From a virus, in the IMG/VR virus record IMGVR_UViG_3300017763_000249, positions 1 to 21,368 of that record: DNA of 21,368 nucleotides, one strand, 5' to 3'. Positions 1,219 to 21,368 of the stretch are shown one piece after another. How positions within the stretch are numbered: the stretch's first letter is position 1; every line of letters begins with the position of its first letter. The position numbers and the translations under genes were made by a program. Under the pieces are notes generated by a model. That model was not told the origin of the DNA, did no database searches, and was given only the letters and a program-made list of their open reading frames with translations.

Positions 1219-1237
1219 CATAAGGCATACATAAGAT

Positions 1238-3357: not shown

Positions 3358-3359
3358 TG
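3355..3359 (+). promoter_or_regulatory. TAATG stop-start overlap (gp6/gp7-position gene)
   Basis: The gp6 TAA (3355-3357) overlaps the next ATG (3357-3359) by one base, the same arrangement as at the gp25/gp6 junction. No strong Shine-Dalgarno is obvious upstream (acggtaactgac), so the downstream gene may rely on ribosomes finishing gp6. Confidence 0.65.
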
Positions 3360-4667: not shown

Positions 4668-4672
4668 GAGGA
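4668..4672 (+). promoter_or_regulatory. Ribosome binding site for gp8-like gene
   Basis: GAGGA lies directly after the preceding TAA and 7 bases before the ATG at 4680, a good Shine-Dalgarno that supports this start. Confidence 0.7.
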
Positions 4673-4679
4673 AATATAG

Positions 4680-6242
4680 ATGGCTTCACAAAGTAATGTA
4701 AATATAAGCAACAGAACAATATCGAACACAAGTTCCACGATGTTTCGTAGTTTAGCGGCAAGAACTACTCTCGATTATATCTGGAAAGATAATCAATTGT
4801 TCTTCTTTGCTGCAAAGGAATCAACGCCAGGTGGCATCTCCGCAGATTCTCTTAAGTCTGATGAGGAAGTTTATGAGAACATAGTTGTCATGGAAAGAGT
4901 TACTGAGGACGATGTGTCTTTGGTTGTGCCTCGAATTAATTGGACCCGAGGCACAGTATATAATGCCTTAGATCCTGATGTAAATTTTTACGATTACACT
5001 GTTGCATTTGATGGAACTGTAGTTTACAAGTATAAACCTTACGTTATGACAGATGATTACAACGTATATCTCTGCATAAAAAACTGTGAGTCGGGATTAG
5101 AAAGGGACAGAGTTGCTTCCCATGTCAAACCCACTAGTGTTGGAACTGACGAGTTTACTACAGAAGATGGATACACATGGAAGTATTTGTATTCGGTGAG
5201 TGATGAACTGTTCACATTCTTGACAACCAAGTGGCTACCAGTCCCAAGACCAATCGAATCTATACCAACAAATCTAAACACATCTAGTGCAAAGTACCGT
5301 CAATTTCAGGTTCAAGAAAAGGCAAAAACAACCGCAGGTAAAATCAATGATGTCAAGATTGATTTGAAACAACAGAATGTTTACTTTGATATGCCAAATC
5401 CACAAGCAACTGTAGTTGGTCAGGGAACTGGTGCGTCTGTTCAACTTAGCACAGCGTTTGAGCCTGGAAAGGGTTATAAAGTAACTGGTTATAGAGTAGC
5501 CAATGGAGGGGTTGGTTATGTTGGAGGTATACTATCTTTAGTAGATTCTCCTAATAGTAATGGTGATATCACCAGCAAGACAGATCTTGAATCTAAAATT
5601 ACTCTTTCCTCTTCCTATGGTGGAACTGAAACAGATTTGGGTAGTGATCCCACTATCACACTACAGGCAAGAACAATGATGTTTGTCGGTAATATGAGAC
5701 AGGGTGACGACTCTATTGGTTCTTTCCCAAATGGAGTTACCATGTCGGCATTTGGATTGATTGGAAACCCAGTTTACGCCACAGGTGATTATCAAGGTCA
5801 GATTGCAGGTCAAGAATTCGGACAGGGTGGAAGTAAAACACTCAACCTACGACAAGCAACTAAAACTAGATTGAAAGATAATAGTGGAACTGGGTTTGTG
5901 ATATCTACTGCAAAGTCCACAATCAATGATGATAGGTTAAAATTCAATAGCACAATTCTGTTTGATACGTCAAAAACCACAGCAAAGGTTATTGATCTTA
6001 CCCCACTTAAATTTTCAGATTCAGGAACTAGTAACCGAGCAGATCTTTTCCTCACAGGTGCAAAGACACCACCATTGCCAGGAGAGACAATGGCTGCCAG
6101 TGGAGGAGAGACCTTTGAAGTTGAGCAAGTTTTTGAGCCAACGTTAAAGGTAGGCTCTGGGGATCTCTTATACATAATACCAGTAACGTTTAACATTTTA
6201 GAAGAACAACTATACACAACTAGATTCATAATTCCGTTGTGA
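4680..6242 (+). CDS. 8: Baseplate wedge subunit gp8-like
   Basis: 520 residues against 334 in T4 gp8. The N-terminal ~200 residues follow the gp8 plan: an initial strand/helix with 'DNQLFFFAAKES' (equivalent to the T4 'ITFGRSEPW' segment), 'VVPRINWTRG' around 83-92 (T4 'VIPRRDWGDT'), a 'YNVYLCIKN' strand around 125, and 'EDGYTWKYLYSVSDEL' then 'TTKWLPVPRP' around 161-192 (T4 'GDGYVWEYLF' then 'YIVVPWPEE'). gp8 is a homodimer in the outer wedge that binds gp7 and gp10. The extra length lies in a central and C-terminal Gly/Thr-rich beta region (from ~230, with 'GQGTGASV' and 'GGVGYVGG' turns) seen in longer marine versions. The C-terminus ends 'LEEQLYTTRFIIPL', comparable to the 'INILFTF' end of T4 gp8. 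Confidence 0.8.
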   Translation: MASQSNVNISNRTISNTSSTMFRSLAARTTLDYIWKDNQLFFFAAKESTPGGISADSLKSDEEVYENIVVMERVTEDDVSLVVPRINWTRGTVYNALDPDVNFYDYTVAFDGTVVYKYKPYVMTDDYNVYLCIKNCESGLERDRVASHVKPTSVGTDEFTTEDGYTWKYLYSVSDELFTFLTTKWLPVPRPIESIPTNLNTSSAKYRQFQVQEKAKTTAGKINDVKIDLKQQNVYFDMPNPQATVVGQGTGASVQLSTAFEPGKGYKVTGYRVANGGVGYVGGILSLVDSPNSNGDITSKTDLESKITLSSSYGGTETDLGSDPTITLQARTMMFVGNMRQGDDSIGSFPNGVTMSAFGLIGNPVYATGDYQGQIAGQEFGQGGSKTLNLRQATKTRLKDNSGTGFVISTAKSTINDDRLKFNSTILFDTSKTTAKVIDLTPLKFSDSGTSNRADLFLTGAKTPPLPGETMAASGGETFEVEQVFEPTLKVGSGDLLYIIPVTFNILEEQLYTTRFIIPL

Positions 6243-6244
6243 TT

Positions 6245-6248
6245 GGAG
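6245..6248 (+). promoter_or_regulatory. Ribosome binding site for the DUF4815-like gene
   Basis: GGAG lies 6 bases before the ATG at 6255, in the 12-base gap after the gp8-like stop codon. Confidence 0.55.
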
Positions 6249-6254
6249 TAGAAG

Positions 6255-7004
6255 ATGGCCCAGCAATCATGGTATGAAAGTTTCTTTCCAACTGATCCTT
6301 ATTTGGACAGTTGGAGTCCAACCAAAAATTACATGTCGCTTGGTTTTGCTCCAGGCTATGCTTTGCAGTCGAGGGAACTCCTTGAACTACAAACTATTAT
6401 TATGCACCAAATGTCAACCACAGCAAGAACTATGTTTAGACATGGACAACCTAGAGTTGACTTGGAGGAAGAGTCTCTAGTAGATACTAGGTTCACTTCT
6501 CCAGTTGCCGTAAATACATCCACACATACATTTTCGATTATCCGAAATGCTCAATTCTTTGCTAATTTTCAACTTGGTGCTGGTGGTGCAGAACTGTCGA
6601 AACCAAATGGTTTTTGGTTAACATTTCCCCCAGTGACAGACAATCTCTATACAGAGCAGATAAACAATGGACAAGATCCAGGCACAAATGACATCGTTGG
6701 TTTTGAAATAGAGAGTCTAGAAAATATTCCTGGCCCTGAGTATGTCGATTATACAACCGATGAAAGTCTACTAGATCCAGCAGGAGATCAGTTTGCAAAT
6801 AGCAATGCGCCAGGAGCGACACGATTTGCGTATAGAGTTAAGAATCAAGATCCCACTAGTGACACTCCGAGATACTTAAAAATAAATGACTCATCTATAG
6901 GTGCAAGACCTATCGGAGAGTTCTTTGTCCCTATTGCTATTTTCAGAAACAACACATACTTCTGGGCGTTTGACAACACCACACCTCTTCGAGCAACCAA
7001 CTAA
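6255..7004 (+). CDS. Structural protein with DUF4815-like N-terminus
   Basis: 249 residues. Residues 26-53 read 'YMSLGFAPGYALQSRELLEL' followed by QTIIMHQM. This matches the 'F-x-PG-x-A-LQ-RELxELQTIxxxQ' helix at the start of DUF4815-type phage structural proteins, which occur next to baseplate and fibre genes. The rest (from ~75) is mostly predicted beta, with acidic loops, and ends in 'GEFFVPIAIFRNNTYFWAFD'. Family members I know of are usually much longer, so this is a short form or only the attachment domain. Its place between gp8 and the fibre genes suggests an adaptor that anchors fibres to the wedge, the job T4 gives to gp9/gp10. That role is inferred from position. GGAG at 6245-6248 precedes the start. 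Confidence 0.55.
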   Translation: MAQQSWYESFFPTDPYLDSWSPTKNYMSLGFAPGYALQSRELLELQTIIMHQMSTTARTMFRHGQPRVDLEEESLVDTRFTSPVAVNTSTHTFSIIRNAQFFANFQLGAGGAELSKPNGFWLTFPPVTDNLYTEQINNGQDPGTNDIVGFEIESLENIPGPEYVDYTTDESLLDPAGDQFANSNAPGATRFAYRVKNQDPTSDTPRYLKINDSSIGARPIGEFFVPIAIFRNNTYFWAFDNTTPLRATN

Positions 7005-7009
7005 TTGAC

Positions 7010-7015
7010 AGGAAA
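7010..7015 (+). promoter_or_regulatory. Ribosome binding site for the 916-residue fibre
   Basis: AGGAAA lies 7 bases upstream of the ATG at 7023, within the 18-base gap. It fits the chosen start. Confidence 0.6.
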
Positions 7016-7022
7016 GATTTAA

Positions 7023-9773
7023 ATGGCAGATATCACAAAAAACAATGAGCAAATCTCGATAGTGTCGTTAGGTGATACTATCAATGATTGGCGAACCTTA
7101 ACAAATACTGACATCATCGGTAAGTTAAACTTGATGAAGGTTTACGATATCTCTGCTCTTACTGGTCTTTCAGTTACTGGTGGTTTTGCTGGTGGTGGAA
7201 CTGGCGGAACTTTCGAGATGTCAGTTGCCGATACAATTGGTAAAGGAATTACAATCGACGGTAATCTTGTGGTTACTGGAAACGTCTCCTTCTCTACAGC
7301 GGGAGAAGTCTCTTTCCCTAATGGTTTGGTTAATGTTAATGGTGATGATAATCCACCCGCAGGAGAAGCGACTGCTGGTATTGTAGTTGGTGCTTACACT
7401 GGTGGTGGTGGACCATACTGGAATTCAGGGACAACTCACCCATACTTCTTGAATTGGAATGGACAGTGGTTCACTAATCAAGATCTTAAGTTAGTTGGCG
7501 GAGGAACTCTAGCCGATAGTGCGATGCAGCAGATCATCTTCGGACAGGCAAATGGTAAGACTTTATCCTTCAAGCAGACCGCAACCGATTTGGTTATTGG
7601 GAATGGTCACACATACGACGCACTAATAACTGGTGCCACCCATGCAGGTGAGATCGCTCGAATCCGAGCAAGCGACGGTAGAGTTGATATTCTAAAGGGT
7701 GTAAACAAGAGAAGAGTCACTGGTGTTTCTCACGGCTTCAACTTTGGTCAAGTCGTTAGAGCATCCGACGCATATGCCGCAGGGTTTACTCTTGCGATTG
7801 CTAGTGGTGCAACATCAGCAGAAGCAGTCGGTATGATTTCTAGAGTCAATGGTAACTCTGACTTTGAAGTAACATTCAACGGAGAAGTCGAAGGTACATT
7901 CACTAGTGTTACTGATGATACAAACATCCTTTCGGTTGGTTGTCCTTACTTCCTCTCCCCAACCAATATTGGTAACATTACACTCACAGAACCATCAACC
8001 GAGGGACATGTCTCGAAGCCAGTGTTCGTTGGTCTATCTCCAGACAGAGGCGTGTTACTGAACTATCGCGGACAAGTAATCAACACAGTCGGCGGCGCTG
8101 GTGGTGGTGGTGGTTCAACCGCAGACGGTGTTTCTGTTAGAACCACAATCGCTGGATCTGGTTTCGCAATCGGTGACATCATAGCACTCGAAGAACAGGG
8201 TGGTGGATACGAAAAACTAAGTGAGTCTAATAAGGCTAGAATTTTTGGTTTGGTGGTCAATGAAGTTTCTGGTGGATACGAACTCCTTCTTTATGGAATG
8301 TCAAAGGACAGTGATACTTTCAGAGACACAATTCACACGAACAGAAAAGCAGGAGATGACCACTTACTTTATGCAAATCAAGAGAATGGAACTGCTGGTC
8401 AATTTGGATTAACCTCGACTACTCCAAATACAGACTTTATCTCACCCTCGGCAATTGTCTTGGGAGATAAGGTATTTTACTTCAACGCCAGATTTGCTCA
8501 GAGTTACGCAACTCCTGTTGACAACAATCTTACGACAACCCAAAGATCAGCACAGGCGTTTACAGCAGCAGAGGTTGCTGGATCTTCAGATGGCGACACG
8601 ATCGGTGGTGGTGGTTATGCAGCGTCCCGTGTGGCTGAAGGAGTAGTAAACGAATTTGTAAACGGTGGCTTTGATATATGGCAAAGAGGAATTGGTGTTG
8701 ACTCTGCCCACACAACAACCGACGATACTTACTTTGCAGATCGTTGGATGAGAGAGTCCACCTTAACAGGATCATATGATAAAGACTTCTCAATTAAGAG
8801 AGAGAACTTCTCATTCGGTCAGTCCGAAGTTCTAGGAAACCCTGAATATTACTCTGTACTTAGATCGGGTGCAACTGGTAATACTGGTGCTACGTTTGGG
8901 GATAAAATTCTCTACAGTATAATCATAGAAGATGCAAACAGGTACGCAGGTATGCCAGTTACAGTTTCATTCTATGCGAAGGGTGCAACTGGTGCGACTG
9001 GTTTTGTCGCAACAGAATACGCACAGTATTGGAACGGCGCTCCTGCTGGTCACGGGAAAATTGTAAGCAGACAAAAATTAGATCTTGTTTATATCGATGG
9101 TGCTACTGGATGGACACGTTATGCCATGTCGTTCAAACCAAGAACCCTACCACCTGGCGCAACGACAAACTCTGAGGATAGTTACGCAACGTTCTCGGTT
9201 TTACCTTATCGATACAATGGAACAACAGGTAACACTGGCGCGGCTGATGTTACATACAACGCCGAACTCTTCCTTGCCAAGTTCCAGATGGAATCTGGTT
9301 TTAAGGTGACTAATCCACTCAGAACCGACAGAAACGAAGAGAGAAGAAGAGCGAGTAAGTTCTATCAAACTAGTTATACGGTAAATGAATATCGTGCTAA
9401 GAATACTATGGTGACTGGAACCAACATTCCCAAGTACGGAAGTCCTACAGTGACGATGAATAGCAGTGGTAACATTCAGTTTGAACTCCCAATTGAAATG
9501 AGAGCAGCACCAACCACAATTGATATTCTCTCTCCAACTGGTGTCGATAAAATGATATTCAATCTGGATGCAGGTAAGGATCTGGATAAGACTTCTGGAA
9601 CAAAGGGTTACAATGATGCTACGAGAAGTGTCACGAACCTTAAGAGTCTGTCAGCAGCCTCCAACTCGGAGAAGGGGTTCAACATATTCGTTCCATCTGG
9701 TGCCGTTTTTGGTGATGCTCTAACATTCCACTACGCAGCGAAAGCAGAATTCAATACAGGAGTTGACGCCTAA
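7023..9773 (+). CDS. Tail fibre/adhesin with repeated beta modules and lectin-like domain
   Basis: 916 residues. The N-terminus (~15-40, 'LGDTINDWRTLTNTDIIGKL') is the anchoring motif common at the start of marine T4-like fibre and structural proteins. At ~225-352 is a module with 'VSHGFNFGQVVR', a buried 'AEAVGMISRV', 'FEVTFNGEVEG' and a 'YFLSPTN' strand. A second, diverged copy follows at ~370-500 ('GSGFAIGDIIALEEQGGGY', 'RIFGLVVNEVSG'). From 545 comes 'FVNGGFDIWQRG' with 'FADRWMRES', the start of a jelly-roll-like domain common in phage tail proteins and suspected to bind carbohydrate, followed by 'PVTVSFYAKG'. Around 760-782, 'NPLRTDRNEERRRASKFYQT' is a widespread fibre motif (x-R-Y-Y-Q type). 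Four loops of the jelly-roll region contain short GATG-type Gly-X-Y triplets. Likely role: host recognition on a baseplate appendage. Confidence 0.72.
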   Translation: MADITKNNEQISIVSLGDTINDWRTLTNTDIIGKLNLMKVYDISALTGLSVTGGFAGGGTGGTFEMSVADTIGKGITIDGNLVVTGNVSFSTAGEVSFPNGLVNVNGDDNPPAGEATAGIVVGAYTGGGGPYWNSGTTHPYFLNWNGQWFTNQDLKLVGGGTLADSAMQQIIFGQANGKTLSFKQTATDLVIGNGHTYDALITGATHAGEIARIRASDGRVDILKGVNKRRVTGVSHGFNFGQVVRASDAYAAGFTLAIASGATSAEAVGMISRVNGNSDFEVTFNGEVEGTFTSVTDDTNILSVGCPYFLSPTNIGNITLTEPSTEGHVSKPVFVGLSPDRGVLLNYRGQVINTVGGAGGGGGSTADGVSVRTTIAGSGFAIGDIIALEEQGGGYEKLSESNKARIFGLVVNEVSGGYELLLYGMSKDSDTFRDTIHTNRKAGDDHLLYANQENGTAGQFGLTSTTPNTDFISPSAIVLGDKVFYFNARFAQSYATPVDNNLTTTQRSAQAFTAAEVAGSSDGDTIGGGGYAASRVAEGVVNEFVNGGFDIWQRGIGVDSAHTTTDDTYFADRWMRESTLTGSYDKDFSIKRENFSFGQSEVLGNPEYYSVLRSGATGNTGATFGDKILYSIIIEDANRYAGMPVTVSFYAKGATGATGFVATEYAQYWNGAPAGHGKIVSRQKLDLVYIDGATGWTRYAMSFKPRTLPPGATTNSEDSYATFSVLPYRYNGTTGNTGAADVTYNAELFLAKFQMESGFKVTNPLRTDRNEERRRASKFYQTSYTVNEYRAKNTMVTGTNIPKYGSPTVTMNSSGNIQFELPIEMRAAPTTIDILSPTGVDKMIFNLDAGKDLDKTSGTKGYNDATRSVTNLKSLSAASNSEKGFNIFVPSGAVFGDALTFHYAAKAEFNTGVDA

Positions 9774-9775
9774 TG
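9771..9775 (+). promoter_or_regulatory. TAATG stop-start overlap (fibre/collar gene)
   Basis: The TAA ending the 916-residue fibre (9771-9773) overlaps the next ATG (9773-9775) by one base. This is the third such junction in the window, and it suggests coupled synthesis of the two appendage proteins. Confidence 0.65.
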
Positions 9776-11068
9776 AGCAATTGCAATAATTCAAGTTCAA
9801 ATATATCAGGGACTCCTATTGCGGGAACCGTATCACAGGTAGGTTCTAACCTAGAAATAGGACCGATTGTTCAAACGAACCACGGGTTCACCGCTGGTAA
9901 TGTCATTCGTTTTGATGTTGGTTCAAATGGATACACTCTAGCACAAGCCGATAGTCCAACAAACGCAGAGGTTTGTGGTGTGGTTACTTCAACATCTAGT
10001 GCGAGTGTCTTTAGGTTTGTAGTCGAGGGTGATGTAGAAACATCTCAGTTTATCCTAAACAACACAATCTACGGATCGACAGGAGGAGAGGTCTTCTTCT
10101 TAAGCGGAGAAACTGCTGGTGTATTAGATAGTGTTCCACCTAACGATGCTGGAAAAGTTCTCAAATCTGTCGTAGTGCGGTTGCCTTCAATTCCAGACGG
10201 CTCTGGCATAACTCAAGAAAGAGGATTAGTTAAGAACTACGTTGGTAATTATCTGGGTGGAGATACTGCAATCTACATGAGTGCAGTAAACCCAATAGGT
10301 TCAATCCATGCCTTCGTTGGAGATACTACAACCATTCCATCTGGATGGGCTGTCTGTGATGGTAGTCCCATCAGTGTGACGACTTATCCAAACTTCTCTA
10401 CAGCAATTAATAAGAGATATGGTTTCAGAGAGGTGCTTACTTTTGCAGGTAATATTCCAGCAGGAAATATTATAGAGCAAGGTGATATTCAAGCAAGGTT
10501 AATCGAAAGAAGCGGACAAAAGGCTTTGGTTGAACACTTAATTCAAGATGTTACGAGAATAGACAATGTTCGCGGTTCTGGAACTGGATCACAAGACGCC
10601 AAGTTAACTACTACACCAACTATTGTTGGATTTGATGCAACAAAAACAGTTAACGTAATTAATGGAAGTCAAGTTTCTCCAAACCAAACAATAACTTTAG
10701 TCACGCTAGACTCGGCCCTGACTCCTGATTTAAGAAATAAATTTATCATGGGTGCGCCCGCTGACACTGAAGAAGTGGCAGGACTAAACCAAGAGGGTGG
10801 TCATGATAAATTAGAAATGGATCAGATCGGTGATGTTACTGGTACAATCAACCGAGGGTTTAATGAAAACACATATGAGTATCTAACAAACCTCCCTCCT
10901 TACGTTACTGTAAATTGGATCATCCGCGTGGGAGACTCAAGTTACACTTCCCTGCTTAATCAGTTGAGTCTAAAAACTCTCAGTCTAACTGAACTACCTA
11001 CTAGTGCCAGTGGACTGGCAGTTGGATCTGTATATAACGATGGCGGTGTTCTTAAAATCGTAACTTGA
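9773..11068 (+). CDS. Fibre protein with phage tail-collar domain
   Basis: 431 residues. Residues ~27-165 repeat the module of the preceding gene: 'TNHGFTAGNVIRFD', 'AEVCGVVTST', 'FRFVVEGDVE', 'EVFFLSGETAG', ending near 'NYVGNYLG'. Residues 172-217 are a clear tail-collar domain (Pfam PF07484 type): 'VNPIGSIHAFVGDTTTIPSG', then WAVCDGSPIS, then 'YPNFSTAINKRYG'. Collar domains occur in T4 gp12 short fibres and in many microcyle-like adhesins. After an inserted region, 'LRNKFIMGAP' and 'LPPYVTVNWIIRVGD' match the usual closing segment of collar proteins. The last ~25 residues ('LPTSASGLAVGSVYNDGG' then VLKIVT) are a C-terminal tag that recurs at the ends of phage structural proteins. It is probably a short baseplate fibre functionally comparable to gp12. 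Its stop codon overlaps the next ribosome binding site. Confidence 0.78.
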   Translation: MSNCNNSSSNISGTPIAGTVSQVGSNLEIGPIVQTNHGFTAGNVIRFDVGSNGYTLAQADSPTNAEVCGVVTSTSSASVFRFVVEGDVETSQFILNNTIYGSTGGEVFFLSGETAGVLDSVPPNDAGKVLKSVVVRLPSIPDGSGITQERGLVKNYVGNYLGGDTAIYMSAVNPIGSIHAFVGDTTTIPSGWAVCDGSPISVTTYPNFSTAINKRYGFREVLTFAGNIPAGNIIEQGDIQARLIERSGQKALVEHLIQDVTRIDNVRGSGTGSQDAKLTTTPTIVGFDATKTVNVINGSQVSPNQTITLVTLDSALTPDLRNKFIMGAPADTEEVAGLNQEGGHDKLEMDQIGDVTGTINRGFNENTYEYLTNLPPYVTVNWIIRVGDSSYTSLLNQLSLKTLSLTELPTSASGLAVGSVYNDGGVLKIVT

Positions 11069-11070
11069 GG
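11067..11070 (+). promoter_or_regulatory. Ribosome binding site for collagen-like fibre 1
   Basis: GAGG begins inside the TGA stop of the collar gene (11066-11068) and lies 6 bases before the ATG at 11077. Confidence 0.6.
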
Positions 11071-11076
11071 CGATAA

Positions 11077-12225
11077 ATGTCAAATAGCGTAATAGGTTAT
11101 AACTTCGGAGCAGTCGGACCCACTGGTGATACAGGTGGGTTCGGCCCTAATGGTCAACTAGGCCCAGCAGGACCAACTGGAGCAACGGGTGGTATTGGTC
11201 CCACTGGTTCTTCTGTCTCTGAAGTCATAATCGGCGACTTCAACGAAGACGGTTCAATAGACATCAAAACAGTTTACACCAATGGTGTGAGTGTTCTGTC
11301 TAGTGATGTTGTTGGTTCGGGGGGATCACTTGGACCTGTTGGTGATTTTGTTTATAAACTATTCGTTGAAGATATTGGAACTGCGGGTGCAACTGCACTT
11401 GTTAAGGGTATCATTGACAATTGTTACATCGGAACAATGGATCTAAAAACCATCAAGGGAACTGGTGGTATTCAGGTCACACAAACTGAAAATGAAATTT
11501 ACATCAGTTATAAAGATAATAAACAAATTGTCGGTGTTACCCCTGCAACAAAAAATCAAATTGCATACATGTCTGGCACTGCTGGTAATAGTGCAGAAGC
11601 CACTCCTCTTGTTCGGGGTGCAACAGGTTTTAATTATAACCCCGAAGACAAAACTATCAGTGCCGTTGTTCGTAAGTATAGAGAGGTTGGTTTTAGATTT
11701 GGTATAACAGAAGTGAGTGGTGGATCTATAAACGATTCAACAAGAGTCATAGAATTTAATGTAGATCCAGGCTTACATCTTGGTACAAGATACGTTCGGG
11801 AAGATCAGTACGGACCATCTGGACCGTGGGGAAACACTTGGTATATTGACGTTGATCAATTGTACATATCTCAAGTTCCCGCCGCCGCGATTCCTCTCGG
11901 AGTATCGGCTCCTTTCATTAAGATCAATGACGTTACGGCAACTGCCGACACATTTGAACACTACTTCGGAAGTGGTAGAGCAACTTCCTTTACTCTTGCT
12001 ATCAAGGGTGGAAGTAACAAACCAAGAACTGATGGAAAAACTTGCGGTATTGTTTGGCCTCAAAACTGGATATTCCCATACAGAGAAAATCCAGTATTAA
12101 CTTCGGGTCTTGATGTATATCAGTTCTATAGTCTTGGTAAGAAAGACTCTGAAAAAAGAACCGTGTGGTATGGTGTTCCACTAAAATCTAGTTCAGGCAC
12201 AGATATATTCTTTCCTACATATTAA
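11077..12225 (+). CDS. Collagen-like fibre protein 1
   Basis: 382 residues. Residues 14-46 are eleven uninterrupted Gly-X-Y triplets (GPTGDT, GPAGPTGATG and so on), a collagen-like trimer stalk of the sort found in phage fibres. Next comes a strand pair 'IDIKTVYTNGVSVLSSDVVG' and a beta module (~90-165, including 'LKTIKGTGGIQVTQ' and 'ENEIYISYKDN') ending 'IVGVTPATKNQIAYMSG'. Related versions of this module appear in the next two genes. The C-terminal ~190 residues are an unrecognised beta-rich globular domain with a strongly aromatic stretch ('SGPWGNTWYIDVDQLYI') and an 'IVWPQNWIFPYREN' segment, plausibly the tip that makes contact. Only two Cys are present, unlike its two neighbours. Spacing to the next gene is 19 bases. 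No family name can be given for the tip. Confidence 0.65.
   Translation: MSNSVIGYNFGAVGPTGDTGGFGPNGQLGPAGPTGATGGIGPTGSSVSEVIIGDFNEDGSIDIKTVYTNGVSVLSSDVVGSGGSLGPVGDFVYKLFVEDIGTAGATALVKGIIDNCYIGTMDLKTIKGTGGIQVTQTENEIYISYKDNKQIVGVTPATKNQIAYMSGTAGNSAEATPLVRGATGFNYNPEDKTISAVVRKYREVGFRFGITEVSGGSINDSTRVIEFNVDPGLHLGTRYVREDQYGPSGPWGNTWYIDVDQLYISQVPAAAIPLGVSAPFIKINDVTATADTFEHYFGSGRATSFTLAIKGGSNKPRTDGKTCGIVWPQNWIFPYRENPVLTSGLDVYQFYSLGKKDSEKRTVWYGVPLKSSSGTDIFFPTY
11116..11214 (+). repeat. Collagen-like Gly-X-Y repeat, fibre 1
   Basis: Residues 14-46 of this gene form 11 perfect Gly-X-Y triplets with many Pro and Thr in X and Y. The DNA is a matching loose 9-base periodicity of GG(T/A/C) codons. It is expected to form a homotrimeric stalk. 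Confidence 0.85.
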
Positions 12226-12244
12226 GACTATCGTGAGTTAAAGC

Positions 12245-15200
12245 ATGACGAATTCCTCTATCTCTACAATCATGGGACCAAGTGGACCGAGAGGACCACA
12301 AGCACCTATAGGATCAACAGGACCAAGTGGTCCAAGTGGTCCTACTGGATCAACTGGTGCCACAGGAGAAATTGGATACGCTCTGGTTGGTTGGACTGCT
12401 GGAACGATAAATTGTAAGAATAGAGTTTTAGTCAACGCTGATGGAACGACTGCCTCAATCGGGCCCGTCTCTGGAAACACAGCAGGATCTGATGGATCTG
12501 TAGGAACAGCAAAGTTCTATGTTCAGCAGTTGGGTGGCGGGGCTAAGATCTTCAAGAACTCAGTAGGCGATACTGCGTTCTTCCGATCCTTCAGAACCAG
12601 TCCTGACATTACAATCAATGAAACTGGAAACAACATTGAGTTAAATGCTCCACTTGGTTCTGGTCTATTATCACAAGTTGTTGGTAAGACAGGTGAACTC
12701 TTACACTATGCGGGAACCACTTTCATCAGAGGTGCTGATGATACGTTTTTTGCGGAAGGTGTCAGTGCAGAAGAGGGTTCTCTTCAGGCAGTAATTGGAG
12801 ATTTCAAAGAGTTAATCAAACGATATGATCCAGTAAATAATGAGTCCATAACTGTAGATACAACGATTACCAACAACCACTACGTTGTAGGTCGCACTGG
12901 TTTTGAAATTACAGATGCGGTGGCAAATGTTCACGGTTTTGAACCTGTAACAACAGACGGTGTGACTTTTGGTGAAACAGTAAACACAACATTCATAATC
13001 AAAAATGGTGGGCTAGCAACAAATCAAAATCCATTCAATGAAGATAAATTCTTATTCAGTCCAGCAGGCCCCACCTTTACTAGATCTGGCACTGATATTG
13101 TAAACTGCATCACGTTTAACAATGGTGACACTTGGCAATGCTTCATCGCTGGTAAAGATTATGATACTACGTTTGATGGAACACTTAGAGTAGGAGCCTG
13201 TTGTCAAGGACCAGATCAGTGTAGTGATTATGTTCTTTCTCAGAACTGCTCTGGTACTTTCTTCAATCGAGTAAGTTGTAATGCAGATCCATGTGATGGC
13301 ACTCTTGGTGCGTGTTGTGTGAACAACTCTTGCTTTAACTATTCTCTTTCCAAGTGTGATGATATTGGTGGCCAATTCTTTTCAAATCTATCATGTGGTG
13401 AATTTACATGTCCGGGACCGTGTGATAATTTAGGTTGTTGCTGTCTCGGTATTGAAGGACAAGTCACTTCGACTAAACCCATATGTGATAATCTGGGTGG
13501 TGTATTCAATGCTGATAAATCATGTGAAGAATTTATAGCAGACGGTGAAAATGGTTGTGAAGAACTAACAAGAGGAGCCTGTTGTTTACCAGATACATCT
13601 AAGTTATGTAACGTACTACCAATCGAATGTGTAGAGGCAGGTGGTATTCACATGGGTGCAGGCACTGTATGTGATCAGGTAGATTGTTGTGCAGGTAGAA
13701 GCATTCCTCTTGGTGCGTGCTGCTGCTCAAACGGAGAATGTAATGATCAAATTGTAGAGTCACTTTGTCCTTCCCAATGTCAGTGGACTGAAAATGCTGC
13801 GTGTGATGTTTGTGGAACAGTCCTAAATTGTAACTGCACAGAGGAGGGTGGTAACCAACCCGCTGGATTTAAAAAGTGGGCCTTGTGGATAAAGGATATA
13901 TTTGTTTCAAATCTTTCTGAGAATCCAGATTCCCCTGACGTAAAACTTCTAGGAAGTGGAGTTGCTGTAGCAGATATAAGCGGACCATTTGGTTGTGATA
14001 GACTATCCGATGGACTACACAACACATACTACACAAATTATGCAAACGCATCACACAATCCATTAACAGAGGCAATTCCATACGCACGTTCATTGAACGT
14101 ACCAGGCTTTGCTAATGAAAATGATTATTACATTCCAAGTCTAAATGAGATGGCTTTCATTGTGTTGAAGAACAGCATTCACTTCAACATTCTAATCGGA
14201 GATACAGTCAACAACTCTCCATACTGGACATCAACAAGATCAAGTGATACTGAATTCTTCACCATAAACGAAGCAGGATCTGTCCTAGAAACTCAGATGT
14301 CTAACATAGGTGAACCAAATCTAGGTAAGAGAGCCGTTGTTGTTAGACGAGAGATGTTAGAGAATGGAGCAGACGAGAGCGGTCTGCCTGCCGTTGGAGA
14401 AGAAAACGCTGACGGTGAAAAGTTTGTTGGTGTTTTTGCTGCTGGATGTTCTGTGATCTTGAGTAATCAAAACACAGGAACCTTTGAACTTCCAACATAC
14501 ACATGTTCAGATCCACTAGAAACTGGACAGTGCTGTACCAATAACCAGTGTAGTATAGCAAATGAATATGACTGTATTTTATCTACACCACCTGGCGTTT
14601 ATTCTGGAGACAACCCAGATGCTAGTTGTGATGACAATCCATGCGAGCCAGATGATCCAACACAAGTTGAAACCTTAAACTGTGCGAGAGCGGGAGTCAT
14701 CTCATACAAAGCAACGGAATTTGATTGTGCATTTGGAATATCAAAGCAACTCTACTACTACGCAGGAACCGTAGATATCAACGGTGTCCCCAATGATCTT
14801 GCGAACTACGACAAACTAAATGTCACAGGTAAAAATGATTCAACTCCAGACTATGATATTCGTGCCACCGCAGTAGATGCAGACACAGGCATTCTTGCAC
14901 AAGGTTATTGTCTTGGACACGATAAGGCTATGGAGTGCGGTACAGATAGAAATATTCTAGCACCCACTGCGATTGCAGCGGCAACACTGAGAGCATATTG
15001 CAATCAAGATTGGTTATATGGAGAAAATTATTCATGTGGCGATTCTGACGTTTGTGGTCAAGCAAAATCTACCTTTGATACGGTGATTGATGATTGTTTA
15101 TCACCAAACTCTATTGCTCTTTGTGGAAAAGCAATTCAAAGAGATACCATAAACATCTTGAATGAATTAGAGAACACAACATGCAGCACCACAAACTGGC

Positions 15201-18052
15201 CATCGGATGTCATATGGATTGATAGCAATAACTGTGCCCCTACTGATGGTGTCTGTAATAAAGCCATTCGCATATGGAACGGTGAACAGGCAAACTGGCC
15301 ACAGGCAACCACAGGAAGAGCAAGCGTATTTACATGCGAACCATGTCTAAATGCCTTCTGTGCATACACTACATCCGTTGGGGATAACACGGTAGATTGT
15401 TGCAAGAGTGGTGGTGAGTGGAGCGATACTTGTGCTGATCTTTACAAGAGTTATTTAGAGAGTGTTTACTATAATGAGTGTGGTAACTCTGATAACCTAG
15501 ATAATCCTTTCTGTGGATTAGACGCTACAAACATCAATTGGCTTACTTTAAGTAATTCTGATATTGGAGAATATGATGATCAAGATCGAGTAGTGTTTAG
15601 TAACAATTCAAGAAAATGTCGTGATGAACTAGATCAACTAAGATCATCCAATCTGTCAGGACCGGATTGTAATGTATTCAACAATCCTGAGTTTGAAACT
15701 TTACAGTATGTTGATTACTCTGTTAAGGCAGACTATTTAACACTCATGCAACCATTATCGCCACTACCTGGCGGATTGAATTTCCAGTTCGTCCCTGTTA
15801 TCTGTAACCAAACAAATCCTTGTATTGCAGGACAGTCCGACTGGCCATCAGAGTTTTCTAACCCAAGATATACTTCACTACTCTATGGCATCAACGATCC
15901 AGCAAATGAAAACCAGTCTTTGATTGGTTCAGCAACGAGCAATAGCAATTTAGGTCTTTGTATCGGTGGTAGTTGTGTAGATAGTTTGCCTTCTCGATCT
16001 GGAACTCCAAAGGCTAGAATCGAAGCGACTATTAATCAAACTCCTGCCGACGAAAGGATCAATGAGCAGAGAGGTCTGTTGATCACAAACTGTCAGAACA
16101 GAGTATTCTGTAGAGGAAATAGTTGCACCGAGTGTGGTGGCTTTGAAGATCTTGTCGAACCATTCGATCAACCTTTAGTCTCTTGTTGGAATTGCTCGAC
16201 TGGACAGTGTTTAGAAACCACAACATGTAGTGAGGACTCCTCACTCTTCCCCGCAGAGTCATGTGATCCATCAGACAACCCATGTCCATTCGGTCAGTGC
16301 TGTGATGCAGATTGTACAGAAACGAGATTGGCAGACTGTGGTGGAGTGTGGAGTCAAACAGATACTCCATGTCCGAACGGTAACTTAACATGCGACTGTG
16401 GATCCGATGCACTCGGCAACTGCTGTACAGATTCGGTTCATAGTTATACATGTCAAAGTCAGTGTGCAGGTGCATGGGAAGAAGGACCAGACGAAGGGCC
16501 TGGATCTTGTATTCCAACAGGCTGCTGTTATCAGGTTGAAAATGTCAGTGGTGATCCCTCGACCGCCCGCGCCGTAACATCACAAACAACCCAATTAGAG
16601 TGTGGAGGTGGGGATGTATCCACAGGAGTGGGTGGTCTGATCTTTATCTCATGGACAGAGGGTGTTGATTGTAGTGCAGTAAACCCAACTGGTAGATTCT
16701 GTAACACTAATAATGAAACTTGTACGGATAACGTATTACCAGCGGACGGAACAATTATTGCAGGTAGTGGTAGGATTAGTATTGAGAACTGGACTCTAGA
16801 TGGATCATGTATAGGAGAAAATCCATGTAATTTCTCCACTGATCTAGCACCAATTTGTTGTCAGGGAATACCAGCAACCGATGGAACTGGAGCGTTTAGT
16901 TGCTTTGAAGATCCAAACCGTGTAGTATGCTTCCCTCAGTTTATCAATGTGGTTGGAAGTTCAACTACATATGCGGGTGTAGAGGATACTACATGTGACG
17001 ATTTTGATTGTTCAACTCAGTCTGGCTGGGGTCACTGTTGTTACAAGTCAAGTGATACTGCCGAATGGCAATGTGCATATCCAGTAGGAGAGTATCACTG
17101 CTTGAACAACTTACACTCCGATGAAACAACCAACCCATCTTGGACTCTAGATGGCAGTAACTGTGACACATGTGGTGATCCTAAAGATCCAACACTAGTA
17201 AATTGCTGCTACAATGTAGATCAATTTGGAACCAAGAGATGTCGTGTTGTTGAGGAAGGTAATTGTACTGCCTCAATATTAAGTGGATGTGGTGTTAAAG
17301 ATATGTTTGGAACCAACACCAATGTTAACGGAAGTGCCAGTGAAGGTTCTGAAGTGTGTGATGAGTGTAACGGATGTGATTCGCCTTCTCTAGTTAACTG
17401 CTGTTTTAATAATGGATCAGATTGTATTATGGTTCCCGAAGATCAATGTAATACTAGTGGAATACTAAACTGTGGACAGGGGGCCTTCGATACTCCAGTA
17501 ATTAGTGGAGACGTAACTGATCCCACCGCAATTGGTTGTCAGGAATGTGAAGAGGGATCATGTGAGACTAACCTCTATATAGAGGGTACTCAAATTCTAC
17601 AGTGTGGAAGTGATATATGTCCGTTTGGTGAAGGTAATAACTATAGTAATTTAGGTGGTGGAGGTAATCCAATCTTTAACCAACTAAAGGTTCTACGAAT
17701 AAGATTTGAAGAAAGAGTTCTTTTAGGTCCAACTGAATATGTAATAGAACTGGAATTTGATAATGAATTTAATGCAACTCAATTCATAGCAAACTACGAC
17801 TTGAAGAATGTTAATGACGTTAATAACGATCCTCTTGGTGATCAGTATATAAGATTTACTAAGAGTGATACTGATATTATTGCATACATTCCAAATGTAA
17901 TACCAACACGACAAGTCAACTTTGTTAAATTCTCTTCATTCAGTCCAACATTCAATCCACCAACACCATCGAAGCCTGTGCAGGAATTTGTTGAAGATTC
18001 TAGTGGAGGAAATATCAACTACTCGGCTAAATATAGAATAAGATTTCCCTGA
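12245..18052 (+). CDS. Giant cysteine-rich collagen-like fibre with GACC repeats and DUF1566-like domain
   Basis: 1,935 residues. Order of parts: collagen-like segment (11-44); beta module shared with the neighbouring fibres (~50-175); a beta domain ending 'TFTRSGTDIVNCITFNNGD' then TW (~240-316); five Cys-rich repeats starting at residues 317, 355, 397, 444 and 490 (best example begins 'GACCLPDTSKLC' and ends 'GAGTVCDQVDC'); a DUF1566/C-type-lectin-like domain (~542-705) with 'YYIPSLNEM' and 'YWTSTRSS' and closing 'RAVVVRRE'; another repeat at 761; a large Cys-containing region of unknown fold (~810-1340); more repeats from 1350 to ~1790; and a Cys-free beta C-terminus (~1805-1935). About 36 Cys fall in residues 317-540 by hand count. 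It is probably a long stiff fibre stabilised by disulfides (or metal), with a lectin-like host-binding insert. The start at 12245 has only a weak Shine-Dalgarno. Met10 is an alternative. Confidence 0.75.
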   Translation: MTNSSISTIMGPSGPRGPQAPIGSTGPSGPSGPTGSTGATGEIGYALVGWTAGTINCKNRVLVNADGTTASIGPVSGNTAGSDGSVGTAKFYVQQLGGGAKIFKNSVGDTAFFRSFRTSPDITINETGNNIELNAPLGSGLLSQVVGKTGELLHYAGTTFIRGADDTFFAEGVSAEEGSLQAVIGDFKELIKRYDPVNNESITVDTTITNNHYVVGRTGFEITDAVANVHGFEPVTTDGVTFGETVNTTFIIKNGGLATNQNPFNEDKFLFSPAGPTFTRSGTDIVNCITFNNGDTWQCFIAGKDYDTTFDGTLRVGACCQGPDQCSDYVLSQNCSGTFFNRVSCNADPCDGTLGACCVNNSCFNYSLSKCDDIGGQFFSNLSCGEFTCPGPCDNLGCCCLGIEGQVTSTKPICDNLGGVFNADKSCEEFIADGENGCEELTRGACCLPDTSKLCNVLPIECVEAGGIHMGAGTVCDQVDCCAGRSIPLGACCCSNGECNDQIVESLCPSQCQWTENAACDVCGTVLNCNCTEEGGNQPAGFKKWALWIKDIFVSNLSENPDSPDVKLLGSGVAVADISGPFGCDRLSDGLHNTYYTNYANASHNPLTEAIPYARSLNVPGFANENDYYIPSLNEMAFIVLKNSIHFNILIGDTVNNSPYWTSTRSSDTEFFTINEAGSVLETQMSNIGEPNLGKRAVVVRREMLENGADESGLPAVGEENADGEKFVGVFAAGCSVILSNQNTGTFELPTYTCSDPLETGQCCTNNQCSIANEYDCILSTPPGVYSGDNPDASCDDNPCEPDDPTQVETLNCARAGVISYKATEFDCAFGISKQLYYYAGTVDINGVPNDLANYDKLNVTGKNDSTPDYDIRATAVDADTGILAQGYCLGHDKAMECGTDRNILAPTAIAAATLRAYCNQDWLYGENYSCGDSDVCGQAKSTFDTVIDDCLSPNSIALCGKAIQRDTINILNELENTTCSTTNWPSDVIWIDSNNCAPTDGVCNKAIRIWNGEQANWPQATTGRASVFTCEPCLNAFCAYTTSVGDNTVDCCKSGGEWSDTCADLYKSYLESVYYNECGNSDNLDNPFCGLDATNINWLTLSNSDIGEYDDQDRVVFSNNSRKCRDELDQLRSSNLSGPDCNVFNNPEFETLQYVDYSVKADYLTLMQPLSPLPGGLNFQFVPVICNQTNPCIAGQSDWPSEFSNPRYTSLLYGINDPANENQSLIGSATSNSNLGLCIGGSCVDSLPSRSGTPKARIEATINQTPADERINEQRGLLITNCQNRVFCRGNSCTECGGFEDLVEPFDQPLVSCWNCSTGQCLETTTCSEDSSLFPAESCDPSDNPCPFGQCCDADCTETRLADCGGVWSQTDTPCPNGNLTCDCGSDALGNCCTDSVHSYTCQSQCAGAWEEGPDEGPGSCIPTGCCYQVENVSGDPSTARAVTSQTTQLECGGGDVSTGVGGLIFISWTEGVDCSAVNPTGRFCNTNNETCTDNVLPADGTIIAGSGRISIENWTLDGSCIGENPCNFSTDLAPICCQGIPATDGTGAFSCFEDPNRVVCFPQFINVVGSSTTYAGVEDTTCDDFDCSTQSGWGHCCYKSSDTAEWQCAYPVGEYHCLNNLHSDETTNPSWTLDGSNCDTCGDPKDPTLVNCCYNVDQFGTKRCRVVEEGNCTASILSGCGVKDMFGTNTNVNGSASEGSEVCDECNGCDSPSLVNCCFNNGSDCIMVPEDQCNTSGILNCGQGAFDTPVISGDVTDPTAIGCQECEEGSCETNLYIEGTQILQCGSDICPFGEGNNYSNLGGGGNPIFNQLKVLRIRFEERVLLGPTEYVIELEFDNEFNATQFIANYDLKNVNDVNNDPLGDQYIRFTKSDTDIIAYIPNVIPTRQVNFVKFSSFSPTFNPPTPSKPVQEFVEDSSGGNINYSAKYRIRFP
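12275..12376 (+). repeat. Collagen-like Gly-X-Y repeat, giant fibre 2
   Basis: Residues 11-44 read as Gly-X-Y triplets (GPSGPR, GPSGPSGPTG, GSTGATG) with one Gly-to-Ala break at residue 20. Pro and Ser/Thr dominate. It sits at nearly the same distance from the start as in the neighbouring genes. Confidence 0.82.
13193..13813 (+). repeat. GACC cysteine-repeat array A (5 units)
   Basis: Units begin at 13193, 13307, 13433, 13574 and 13712. The shared pattern is G-A-C-C, a short loop, C, ~6-9 residues, C, often x-x-G-G plus an aromatic or aliphatic residue, ~6-8 residues, C, 3-4 residues, C. The units differ greatly in DNA sequence, so they are old duplicates. The pattern matches a repeat I know from secreted and surface proteins of environmental bacteria. 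Confidence 0.78.
13868..14359 (+). other. DUF1566/C-type-lectin-like domain within giant fibre 2
   Basis: Residues ~542-705 carry the landmarks of DUF1566-type domains: an early 'KWALWIKDIF' strand, an 'AIPYARSLN' helix, 'NDYYIPSLNEMAFIVLK' (the W/Y-x-LPS-x-x-EL element), 'PYWTSTRSS' (the YWSST element) and the closing 'KRAVVVRRE' (V-R-x-VR element). Such domains adopt formylglycine-enzyme/C-type-lectin-like folds and are used as binding modules. The catalytic residues of a formylglycine enzyme are not evident. Confidence 0.6.
14525..14650 (+). repeat. GACC-type repeat following the lectin-like domain
   Basis: One unit begins 'GQCCTNNQCS' at residue 761 and ends 'SCDDNPCE'. It resumes the Cys pattern right after the lectin-like domain, which shows that the domain is inserted in a repeat array. 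Confidence 0.7.
16292..17560 (+). repeat. GACC-type cysteine-repeat array B (about 7 units)
   Basis: Units with a central Cys-Cys pair start near 16292 (GQCC), 16415 (GNCC), 16520 (GCC), ~16850 (ICC), 17030 (GHCC), 17198 (VNCC) and 17393 (VNCC). Compared with array A, the loops are longer and more variable and the GG turn is often lost. The last two units share 'VNCC' and a longer tail ending in Cys-x-x-Cys (C-D-E-C and C-Q-E-C), so they look like a more recent pair. Confidence 0.65.
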
Positions 18053-18066
18053 GTCTGATATATAAT

Positions 18067-18073
18067 AAGAGGA
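18067..18073 (+). promoter_or_regulatory. Ribosome binding site for giant fibre 3
   Basis: AAGAGGA lies 4 bases before the ATG at 18078. It is the strongest Shine-Dalgarno among the fibre genes and supports this start. Confidence 0.65.
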
Positions 18074-18077
18074 TCAT

Positions 18078-21000
18078 ATGGCCAACAGTACGTTTCAATC
18101 TATAACTGGACCATCAGGACCAGAGGGAATTAAAGCAATCGGTGTCACTGGTAACAGTGGTGACACTGGTGGTATTGGTGCAACTGGTCCAGAGGCACCA
18201 TTCGTGTCTCAGTATAGATGGTCCGAGGTTGATCCATCAAATGGCGAAGAAAGAATCAAGTTAACACTTTCAGATGAGAGTGTTGTTTATGTTGGTGGTG
18301 TATCTGGACAGAATGCCTACGTTGCTGGAGTTACGGCACTGGGTGAAAGTGTTGGCAATCCAAGTGGTCAAATCTTCAAACAAACCACCACCGCTGGACC
18401 AGATCCTAGCGGAGCAACTTTTCAATTCAGAGGACTGACTGCTGCTGTTGATCTTGGTATTGAGTGGGCTGACGATACGATCTCCATCTCCTCTCCAATA
18501 GGAATCACAACAGGCTATGTGGATTCAGGTAGCACAGGTGAGTTCCTGTTCCTATCTCCCCAATACAAAGCACAAGGTGGTTCGGGTAGTTTTTATGATA
18601 GTTTCGGCGGACCAAATCCAACGGGGACTGGCGATACAATCAGTGTTAAGTTTAGAAACGCCATAGCACACGTTGGAGATGAATATAATATTGACTTCTG
18701 TAATACGGCAGTTGCAAATGAATCTGGTGATAAACTAAAGGAATATATTCTTGATGTGGCGAACCTAGTTCGTTTTAGTCCTCCAGAAGAAAATGGTAAA
18801 CGATTTGGTTATCTTTGTGTTTCTGTAAAATTCTTTCAAGCAGATGATAGAATTGTAATACTACGAACAAAAGTAGACAACAATCAAGATACAGAAACAA
18901 TTCGTCAACCTTTATATGGTGCATCTGAGGTAAACTTTGAAAATCCATTGTCAGGTGAACTCTTGTATGTTTCTGGAGAAAACAACAGCGGTGAAGGTTA
19001 TGGCAATGATTCGTACAGACGAAGTATAATAAGTTTTAACACACCATACGAAAATTTAAATGAGGGTTATGAAGCAGGTATCCATCCTCAAGTATGGAGT
19101 GGATCTACGGGCGCACCTGCCGTTGATTACCCCAGCGAACAAGCAGTAATTTTCGATACAAACTGTATAGACGATGATACTCTGGAAGGTAAGTTGTTCA
19201 GAGGTAAACCATTCTGCTCAGATCCAGAATCTGAGTTGGGTAATGGAACTCACAGTTACTGTCTCCGTATTGAGGAAGACATGTTCGAGTCTCAAAACAC
19301 AAGTAGTCCGTGGTACGGTAAAATTCGCATGGTCGTAATGCCTGGTTGTGGCAACGAGTCAGGTAGTGGCACTCAATGGAAATGGAAAATTTCATGTGAG
19401 TCTGTGTGTTCATGTAGAGATGCAGGAACAGTTGATGACAACCCATATGGTGCGTGTTGCACAAGTGCAGTTGCAGATTGTGATTCCCTGTCGGGTGGAC
19501 CAATCAGCGGTAGATTAGAACTTGATATTACCAACGCTGACGTTTTCAATGTTGCTGCCCCAATTGATATCGCGGGAATCACTTGGTCATACGATCAAAG
19601 GCCTGGACTGTCTCTTGGTAGTAATGATGGTAACAACTTTGGTGAGATGAAAAACATCACGGTCATCGTTGAGGGTGGACCAAATAATATTAAATTCCCA
19701 GACAACGTAAAGTTTGCTGGAACACCAACATTTACAAATGGTATTGACATAGTAAACTTACTGACTGTTGATAATGGTGACACTTGGTTTGCCACACAAA
19801 CAGGATATGGGTGGGATGTTGATATATTCAAAGAGGATCGATTGGGATCATGTTGTAGTGGTCTTGGTTGTGTAAACTTTGTAAACAAAACATATTGTGA
19901 TGAACTAGGTGGATCTTTTGAGGAAGATGTTCCTTGTTATAGAAGAACTGATCCTGAGTGTGGTGCAGGAATCACGGGAGGTTGTTGTTCTGGTCTAGAA
20001 GGCACAATCAACACAGGAGTTTTGTGTGATGATAGTGGTGACTATACTCCACCTGCGGATTATGTATGTTGTAGTGATGATGCAGGATGTTTGCCTGGGC
20101 CTGAAGATTTTGGTTCATATATTGGTTGCTTATACGGACAATGTGAAAGTTGTTGTGGTGGTAATTTAAACTTTGAATTCTGTGATGATTTATGTACCCT
20201 ACCTATACAGAAGTGTTGTTTTGATTTAGATCCTGAAAGTTCATACTGTGTCACAATAACAGATGGATGTAACAGTTGCGAAGAACTAGGAGGAAGAGAG
20301 GTTCAGAATTGTTCTGAATGTAATTTGGGTAACGACAATCTCTTCAAGTGTTGCGCCCCGTGTCCAATCGGTTGTGTTGATGTTCCAAATACAGAAAGTT
20401 GCACCGCACTACAGGGTAGGATCTCAAACACTGGCTTATGTTCAGCGTGTCTAGGTCCAGAATATGATGACATATATGGAGGAACAGATGGACCTGTTGG
20501 TAGACCAAAGTGTTTGCTTCCCTCGACTCTTCTACAGTGCAACCTAATCAACGGTTATTTTGTTCCTTCAACTGTTACTGAAGATCCTTGTACAATCTGC
20601 GAGACTATCAATGTATGTGATCCACCACCAGTAGGTGCCTGTTGTGACGATACAAACGGTGATTGTCGTGGTATTATGTTAGAAGAAGTTTGTGATGCCA
20701 TAAAAGCACAAAATCCAGAGTTAAATATCACATGGCTAGGGGCAGGATCTGAATGTGATGACTGTTGTGGTAATCAGGAATTCCGAGGTGCTTGTTGCTT
20801 CTGTAATGAAAATTGTGTTCCTAATCTAACACCACAAGAGTGTTCCTCATTGAGAGGAATCTTTATGGGAATAGATTCTACATGTGGCTCTGTTAATTGT
20901 AGCATCGCTGGACCATGTGAATGTCCCTGTGAAATAACAGGATGTTGTGATTGTCCCGCAGGACACCCATCAAGAAGTCCTTGTTGTGATGATCCACAGT

Positions 21001-21368
21001 CTGAAGAATGTTGTGATAGTGGAGACTGGTGTGGCGACGATGACGACGACGACGATTCTTCGGATGATCCAAATGACACAGACGATACTGAAGAATTTGA
21101 AATACCACTTTTTCCAGGCGACAGCGGAAAGAGAGGCCCCGGAACACCCAGAAGTGATTGGACTAAGGGTGCCTGTTGTCAAGCGGGAGCAGGTTGTCAC
21201 CGTATATTCGTTGGTTCTAGACTAACTGGTCCTGTGTTTGGTCCTTTCGATCCAGCAGAGGTGGCTAATGAAAGATGTTCAGGAACATTCACACCTGAAG
21301 CGACATGTCAAGAGGTCAGTTGTAAAAAGCCAAAATACACAGGTGCGTGTTGTTGTGCAACTTGGTCT
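18078..21368 (+). CDS. Giant cysteine-rich collagen-like fibre (partial, 3' end outside window)
   Basis: I followed the frame from the ATG at 18078 to the last base: 1,097 codons without a stop, so the gene continues past the window. Order of parts: collagen-like segment (~11-40); the beta module shared with the two preceding fibres (~43-170, with 'RIKLTLSDESVVYVGGVSG'); an unrecognised region (~180-455); a first Cys-Cys unit at 458; a beta domain (~475-589) ending 'TFTNGIDIVNLLTVDNGDTW' that is clearly related to the one before the repeats in the previous gene; then GACC-type repeats starting at 590 (GSCC), 635 (GGCC), 853, 904, 1031 and 1089 (all GACC), with further CC units between; and an Asp-rich tract (~986-1007). 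It is probably a paralogue of the preceding giant fibre. No stop or C-terminal domain is visible here. Confidence 0.8.
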   Translation, partial: MANSTFQSITGPSGPEGIKAIGVTGNSGDTGGIGATGPEAPFVSQYRWSEVDPSNGEERIKLTLSDESVVYVGGVSGQNAYVAGVTALGESVGNPSGQIFKQTTTAGPDPSGATFQFRGLTAAVDLGIEWADDTISISSPIGITTGYVDSGSTGEFLFLSPQYKAQGGSGSFYDSFGGPNPTGTGDTISVKFRNAIAHVGDEYNIDFCNTAVANESGDKLKEYILDVANLVRFSPPEENGKRFGYLCVSVKFFQADDRIVILRTKVDNNQDTETIRQPLYGASEVNFENPLSGELLYVSGENNSGEGYGNDSYRRSIISFNTPYENLNEGYEAGIHPQVWSGSTGAPAVDYPSEQAVIFDTNCIDDDTLEGKLFRGKPFCSDPESELGNGTHSYCLRIEEDMFESQNTSSPWYGKIRMVVMPGCGNESGSGTQWKWKISCESVCSCRDAGTVDDNPYGACCTSAVADCDSLSGGPISGRLELDITNADVFNVAAPIDIAGITWSYDQRPGLSLGSNDGNNFGEMKNITVIVEGGPNNIKFPDNVKFAGTPTFTNGIDIVNLLTVDNGDTWFATQTGYGWDVDIFKEDRLGSCCSGLGCVNFVNKTYCDELGGSFEEDVPCYRRTDPECGAGITGGCCSGLEGTINTGVLCDDSGDYTPPADYVCCSDDAGCLPGPEDFGSYIGCLYGQCESCCGGNLNFEFCDDLCTLPIQKCCFDLDPESSYCVTITDGCNSCEELGGREVQNCSECNLGNDNLFKCCAPCPIGCVDVPNTESCTALQGRISNTGLCSACLGPEYDDIYGGTDGPVGRPKCLLPSTLLQCNLINGYFVPSTVTEDPCTICETINVCDPPPVGACCDDTNGDCRGIMLEEVCDAIKAQNPELNITWLGAGSECDDCCGNQEFRGACCFCNENCVPNLTPQECSSLRGIFMGIDSTCGSVNCSIAGPCECPCEITGCCDCPAGHPSRSPCCDDPQSEECCDSGDWCGDDDDDDDSSDDPNDTDDTEEFEIPLFPGDSGKRGPGTPRSDWTKGACCQAGAGCHRIFVGSRLTGPVFGPFDPAEVANERCSGTFTPEATCQEVSCKKPKYTGACCCATWS
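18108..18197 (+). repeat. Collagen-like Gly-X-Y repeat, giant fibre 3
   Basis: Residues 11-40 contain Gly-X-Y triplets (GPSGPEG, then GVTGNSGDTGGIGATGPEA) interrupted by a phase-breaking 'IKAI' between Gly17 and Gly22. The opening 'GPSGP' is shared with the preceding gene. Confidence 0.78.
19845..21368 (+). repeat. GACC-type cysteine-repeat array C
   Basis: Clear units start at 19845, 19980, 20634, 20787, 21168 and 21342. Several less regular CC units lie between, for example 'ESCCGGNLNFEFC', 'QKCCFDLDPESSYC' and 'FKCCAPCPIGC'. The array is still running at the window edge. The unit at 20787 ('GACCFCNENCVPNLTPQEC', then LRG, ending 'TCGSVNC') closely follows the consensus. Confidence 0.75.
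21036..21101 (+). repeat. Asp-rich tract with GAC/GAT codon run
   Basis: Seven consecutive Asp codons (GAC/GAT) start at 21036, followed by Ser and further Asp/Glu residues over ~22 codons. It is a low-complexity, highly acidic linker interrupting the Cys repeats, followed by a short GDSGKRGPG collagen-like patch. Confidence 0.8.

Follow-up and report, generated by a model that had tools for sequence, protein, structure and literature searches.

A cysteine-rich, probable fibre gene cut by the contig end in an uncultivated T4-like phage

The window analysed here, the whole 21,368 nt of IMG/VR virus record IMGVR_UViG_3300017763_000249, ends inside a very long open reading frame (ORF), which raises the questions of whether this frame is a real gene and what its product might do. 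Direct reading of the plus strand from the ATG at 18078 to base 21368 gave 1,097 codons and zero in-frame stops, as a preliminary description had claimed, while the remaining five frames over 18078–21368 contain 30–135 stops each and the base-composition probability of 1,097 stop-free codons is ~10^-32. An upstream start is excluded by the in-frame TAA directly 5' of the ATG (18066–18068, + strand), and the ribosome binding site previously placed at 18067–18073 (+ strand) is found exactly there in the sequence as AAGAGGA, four bases before the ATG. The remark that the region otherwise holds only small reverse-strand shadow frames was nearly right, the exception being one forward-strand shadow of 92 codons (20947–21225).

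When other IMG/VR contigs were compared, a homologue on an independent contig (L002) proved to be full length with 1,470 codons, starting at the same Met and 73% identical, its alignment spanning residues 1–1097 in one frame without a stop. A second independent contig (L003) is 85% identical over residues 742–1097, and three more full-length orthologues have about 1,480–1,520 aa, the identity of the four full-length orthologues to the ORF being 47–73%. The preliminary description had named a start much further downstream or a sequencing indel as possible flaws; the former is contradicted by the start Met and N-terminus, which are the same in the orthologues, and the latter by the single stop-free frame held by the independent contigs. 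Values of dN/dS were 0.20 (against L002) and 0.32 (against L003), indicating from these alignments that the gene is under purifying selection. The orthologues run on for 358–371 residues past the position of the window edge, with 25–27 more Cys, confirming that the right edge interrupts the gene, so that the 3'-truncated ORF (18078–21368, + strand) represents 1,097 of an estimated 1,455–1,470 codons. An assembly or frame artefact producing a spurious long frame would fit an ORF leaving the contig edge with no internal stop, but is so improbable that it can practically be set aside, given the low dN/dS against L002, the frame retained and every Cys kept in independent contigs, and a second contig, 99.94% identical, that covers window positions 1077–16575, though not the ORF itself. 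The ORF is a genuine gene, cut by the contig end.

The ORF lies in a T4-like late tail and neck cluster, of which gp25-gp6-gp8 are present in the window and gp13-14-15-17 are known from orthologous contigs only. On the plus strand the window encodes the baseplate wedge proteins gp25 (1238–1627; PHROG 261, E 3.9e-31), gp6 (1627–3357; PHROG 219, E 2.5e-106, with tblastn matches to pelagiphages and cyanophages) and a gp8-like protein (4680–6242; PHROG 438, E 1.7e-45), and a short tail fibre of gp12 type with a Phage Tail Collar domain (9773–11068; Pfam Collar E 9.6e-9, above the cut-off, and PHROG). After these baseplate and short-fibre genes, and before the neck gene gp13, comes a cassette of four genes encoding a 382-aa collagen-headed protein (11077–12225, + strand, not Cys-rich), a giant protein of 1,900 aa, the ORF product of 1,470–1,520 aa and a Cys- and leucine-rich-repeat protein of about 1,100–1,150 aa. 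Seven contigs that span the cassette wholly or in part (L002, L173, L193, L198, L259, L328 and L340) keep this order, and 3' of the cassette the orthologous contigs, where they extend so far, encode a 178-aa protein followed by gp13, gp14 and gp15, a 156-aa ORF and the start of a terminase-like gene. The 99.94% identical contig extends leftward into further T4-like genes, among them genes for a tail tube cap and for a single-strand DNA binding protein of gp32 type; this contig, IMGVR_UViG_3300021959_000231 (L007/L143), is from the same virus and also breaks in the cassette, inside the giant gene. No tRNA genes were found in the window. For gp6 and gp13 the nearest named phages are pelagiphages and cyanophages, and for gp6 also a Methylophilales phage, at about 28–42% identity, which places the lineage at a distance from the isolates in that collection.

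Copies of the leucine-rich-repeat gene (L002:12419-15871, L003:2195-5671, L010:207-3683 and L173:8038-11454) carry both a six-Cys module, described below as the GACC module, and a C-terminal leucine-rich-repeat domain, which in the L173 copy scores above the Pfam LRR_8 cut-off (30.3 against 27 bits). At another locus (L372, Sf-CH11, 39955-43818) genes for an annotated prolyl 4-hydroxylase and other 2OG oxygenases adjoin large structural proteins just before gp13.

The ORF product starts with a short, interrupted collagen-like Gly-X-Y tract (18108–18197, + strand; residues about 11–40), identified from the sequence, and weak PHROG tail-fibre matches fall at residues 10–38 of the orthologue P0002. 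A collagen-like head similar in kind is found in both preceding proteins. The following N-terminal region (18213–18827, + strand; residues 46–250) is partly common to the preceding giant protein (12245–18052, + strand; 1,935 aa, 134 Cys), with blastp and phmmer E of about 1e-3 without the collagen tract, and hhalign including the tract gave E 2e-8. A tail-fibre domain of PHROG 7760 type (19497–19796, + strand; residues about 474–573; E 7.7e-5) also matched the C-terminal end of small tail fibre proteins from Vequintavirus by tblastn (E 0.03). Together with the collagen-like N-terminus, this gives the product matches to known tail-fibre domains, at modest scores.

The preliminary description had called the product a paralogue of the giant fibre. 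The two N-termini have in common the collagen-like start and about 120–170 further residues, for which blastp gave E 2e-12 when the collagen tract was included and 2e-3 to 4e-4 when it was left out. The proteins also share the tail-fibre domain of PHROG 7760 type, over roughly 80 residues (39% identity, E 4e-8), as well as the GACC module. Residues about 250–450 of the ORF have no counterpart in the giant, nor has the giant's long central part any in the ORF, and homology does not extend along most of the length; the giant is thus a partial paralogue and a fellow member of the cassette, the term being right module by module only. In the giant protein a weak, below-cut-off Lcl_C match was seen at residues 607–673, and is not listed for the L002 orthologue.

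The conserved cysteine-rich half (19833–21368, + strand; residues 586–1097), which went unremarked in the preliminary description, is the unusual part of the protein. It has 71 Cys and 2 His in 512 residues and includes a variable aspartate-rich tract (21033–21086, + strand; alignment A1). Up to the window edge the ORF encodes 83 Cys, of which as many as 73 are invariant in all four full-length orthologues, compared with 10–46% for other residue types (Trp 46%, Gly and Met 43%), and against L002 the ORF retains 83/83 Cys at 73% overall identity (Fisher p 2.6e-12). Searches of Pfam, NCBIfam and PHROGs with this half gave no match, nor did a PDB sequence search with the whole of P0002, and no tandem DNA repeats were found in it. 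Most of the half is not recognisably modular, a good module match being obtained at three stretches only.

From the clearest repeats a consensus was derived, G[AS]CC-x-C-x8-C-xxxGG-x-F-x-G-x-C-x-C, with six Cys in about 38 residues (hereafter the GACC module); for membership of the module family the slightly wider form G[AS]CC-x-C-x(7-8)-C-xxxGG-x-[FWY]-xG-x-C-x-C was used. On the plus strand, module 1 (19845–19961; residues 590–628) scored 38.7 bits and module 2 (20634–20765; residues 853–896) 28.9 bits with a phage HMM, both stretches belonging to its training set. An HMM built solely from units of bacterial loci gave 13.6 bits for module 1 and 33.2 bits for module 3 (20787–20900; residues 904–941), assigning the ORF to the module family, and did not separately detect residues 853–896. 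The bacterial loci were obtained by scanning species genomes with a degenerate DNA pattern; many of the matches listed are from Phycisphaerae/Planctomycetota and some from Myxococcota, and at least 118 bacterial units were confirmed by the phage HMM; since the loci were picked with a phage-derived pattern, the bacterial HMM is not a blind test. The arrangement of the bacterial units, in tandem with linkers, lies outside the selection pattern. No Pfam or NCBIfam model covers the units in six bacterial proteins, P0001 or P0002. Among the matches listed, Planctomycetota genomes, and some of Myxococcota, commonly carry GACC repeats (e.g. L082, L089, L094 and L071), at times together with weak dockerin matches.

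Two pattern scans of IMG/VR found the module in 135 of 230 loci among the matches listed (E < 1e-3 with the search size set to 1e6; pattern-selected loci, no census), and a T4-like baseplate or neck gene occurred in the same stretch in 46 of the 135 module loci against 11 of the 95 module-free ones, again among the matches listed. In 11 named-phage regions (342 kb) no GACC module was found and the Cys-rich ORFs there did not score with the module HMM. By tblastn, 50,697 phage records gave no match to P0001 (1e-5) or to P0003 and P0004 (0.01), and the repeat stretches searched against named phages at E 10 gave chance-level matches only. Literature searches found nothing relevant on fibres of cyanophages rich in Cys or on Cys repeats of planctomycetes. 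One viral ORF (L333:1-4434) combines 11 GACC modules with a region of FG-GAP repeats that also matches cyanophage and Vibrio phage proteins; these named-phage matches were rejected as GACC relatives, as they fall at residues 61–430, mostly FG-GAP, and no GACC unit is detectable in the records. Judged by sequence, GACC modules occur widely among environmental phages and bacterial proteins of secreted type.

To model the fold, two adjacent units (residues 853–947, 40 sequences) were submitted to AlphaFold, giving a mean pLDDT of 83.6 (about 88 over module 3) and a predicted beta-beta-alpha-beta unit; a full-length model from three sequences (pLDDT 27.5) was unusable. When a 32-unit module profile was compared with the PDB, iRhom1 and iRhom2 were matched (E 2.6e-4 and 0.01), and neither was recovered by two control profiles with permuted non-Cys columns, a small control which argues that Cys spacing alone does not explain the match. 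Foldseek with the module model also ranked the iRhoms first, weakly (E 0.29, prob 0.85), and VIA-align gave Z 4.0–4.6 over 41–49 residues, a weak score, the iRhom2 segment being that of the profile match. Against viral predicted structures Foldseek returned nothing below E 0.9, and P0001 and P0002 gave no Pfam rhomboid match at E up to 1. Eight disulfides hold the extracellular domain of the iRhoms together, and its fold was described as having no known structural relative (PMC11248996). One segment of this domain (IRHD) in iRhom1/2 resembles the GACC module by profile and, weakly, by fold alignment, whereas the iRhoms themselves are eukaryotic pseudoproteases of the membrane whose membrane core is rhomboid-like. 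Common ancestry of the module and the iRhom segment is plausible.

Taken with the cassette position, the collagen head, the tail-fibre domain and the Cys conservation, the divergence of the proteins bears on function: between L002 and L003 the neck proteins gp13 and gp14 are 93–94% identical and the fibre-type proteins 56–66%, faster divergence of the latter probably being the usual host-contact pattern. On these grounds the ORF product is probably a tail or neck fibre, stapled by disulfides, of an uncultivated T4-like phage with a contractile tail, with its disulfides, virion location and receptor as inferred features. The word fibre in the preliminary description is likewise made likely, rather than proven, by position, collagen tract and PHROG tail-fibre match. 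The collagen-like tract and the neighbouring N-terminal region would form a probable anchor and trimerisation part, followed by the tail-fibre domain and a distal half of GACC modules, each with three predicted disulfides, and the modules together with the looser Cys-rich sequence may form a rigid, protease-resistant, fast-diverging host-contact region. Virion incorporation, trimerisation and adhesion are, like the disulfides, suggested by these features.

T4-like structural proteins fold in a reducing cytoplasm, and disulfides would therefore need to arise at a late stage or once the particles have left the cell. Such folding would favour free thiols, and with the very high Cys content and the aspartate-rich tract it could suggest that the Cys-rich half binds metal, in a zinc or metallothionein-like manner, with no disulfide bonding. 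This is unlikely, as in comparison with shuffles CxC is depleted in the Cys-rich half and CxxC is at chance level, only 2 His accompany the 71 Cys, the module resembles an extracellular disulfide-held domain, and weak matches to dockerin or anchor domains, which are typical of secreted proteins, occur in some of the six bacterial carriers scanned. Within the disulfide-stapled fibre reading, the place of attachment may also be considered. The cassette follows the collar-domain fibre gene of gp12 type and precedes gp13, and in the T4 gene order wac is found between gp12 and gp13, which would suit a neck or whisker protein instead of a baseplate-attached receptor-binding fibre. The same slot is, however, filled with several kinds of fibre gene in related marine T4-like phages, and searches made without a dedicated fibritin model gave no match to the fibritin sequence, so that a neck or whisker protein appears doubtful while keeping an appreciable chance.

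The fibre reading adds to environmental phages a conserved fibre cassette for which no relative was found among named phages, and an extracellular-type module without a curated family in the libraries searched (Pfam, NCBIfam), and it raises the question of how phage proteins with about 100 conserved Cys, made in a reducing cytoplasm, are folded. If the iRhom likeness is true homology, it suggests where part of a domain described as lacking any structural relative could have come from. The most far-reaching proposal, which we hold tentatively and consider somewhat less than evenly probable, is of uncatalogued, widespread, collagen-headed and disulfide-armoured fibres in environmental T4-like phages, whose six-Cys module is related by descent to planctomycete proteins and the iRhom domain.

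Among known systems, a precedent for a disulfide-crosslinked contractile tail, like the fibre proposed here, is Agrobacterium phage Milano, where disulfides occur throughout the tail, short tail fibre included; according to the accessible text of that report the inter- and intra-chain Cys are in standard tail proteins and a Cys-rich repeat module is not described there (PMC10811340). The same six-Cys GACC unit occurs in tandem in proteins of Planctomycetota/Phycisphaerae, Myxococcota and others, which differ in being cellular; for the six that were scanned, neither a collagen nor a fibre domain was reported. Kyanoviridae and relatives (HTVC008M, Mosig, Melnitz, cyanophages) share the order of the late genes and likewise encode large fibre-type proteins in the interval from the baseplate genes to gp13, but differ in lacking the GACC module in the regions scanned. 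Finally, the small tail fibre of Vequintavirus FV3 (YP_007006214; PHROG 7760) has a domain of about 100 residues like residues 474–573 of the ORF; in FV3 this domain is the C-terminus of a 222-aa protein, while in the ORF it is internal and a long Cys-rich part follows.
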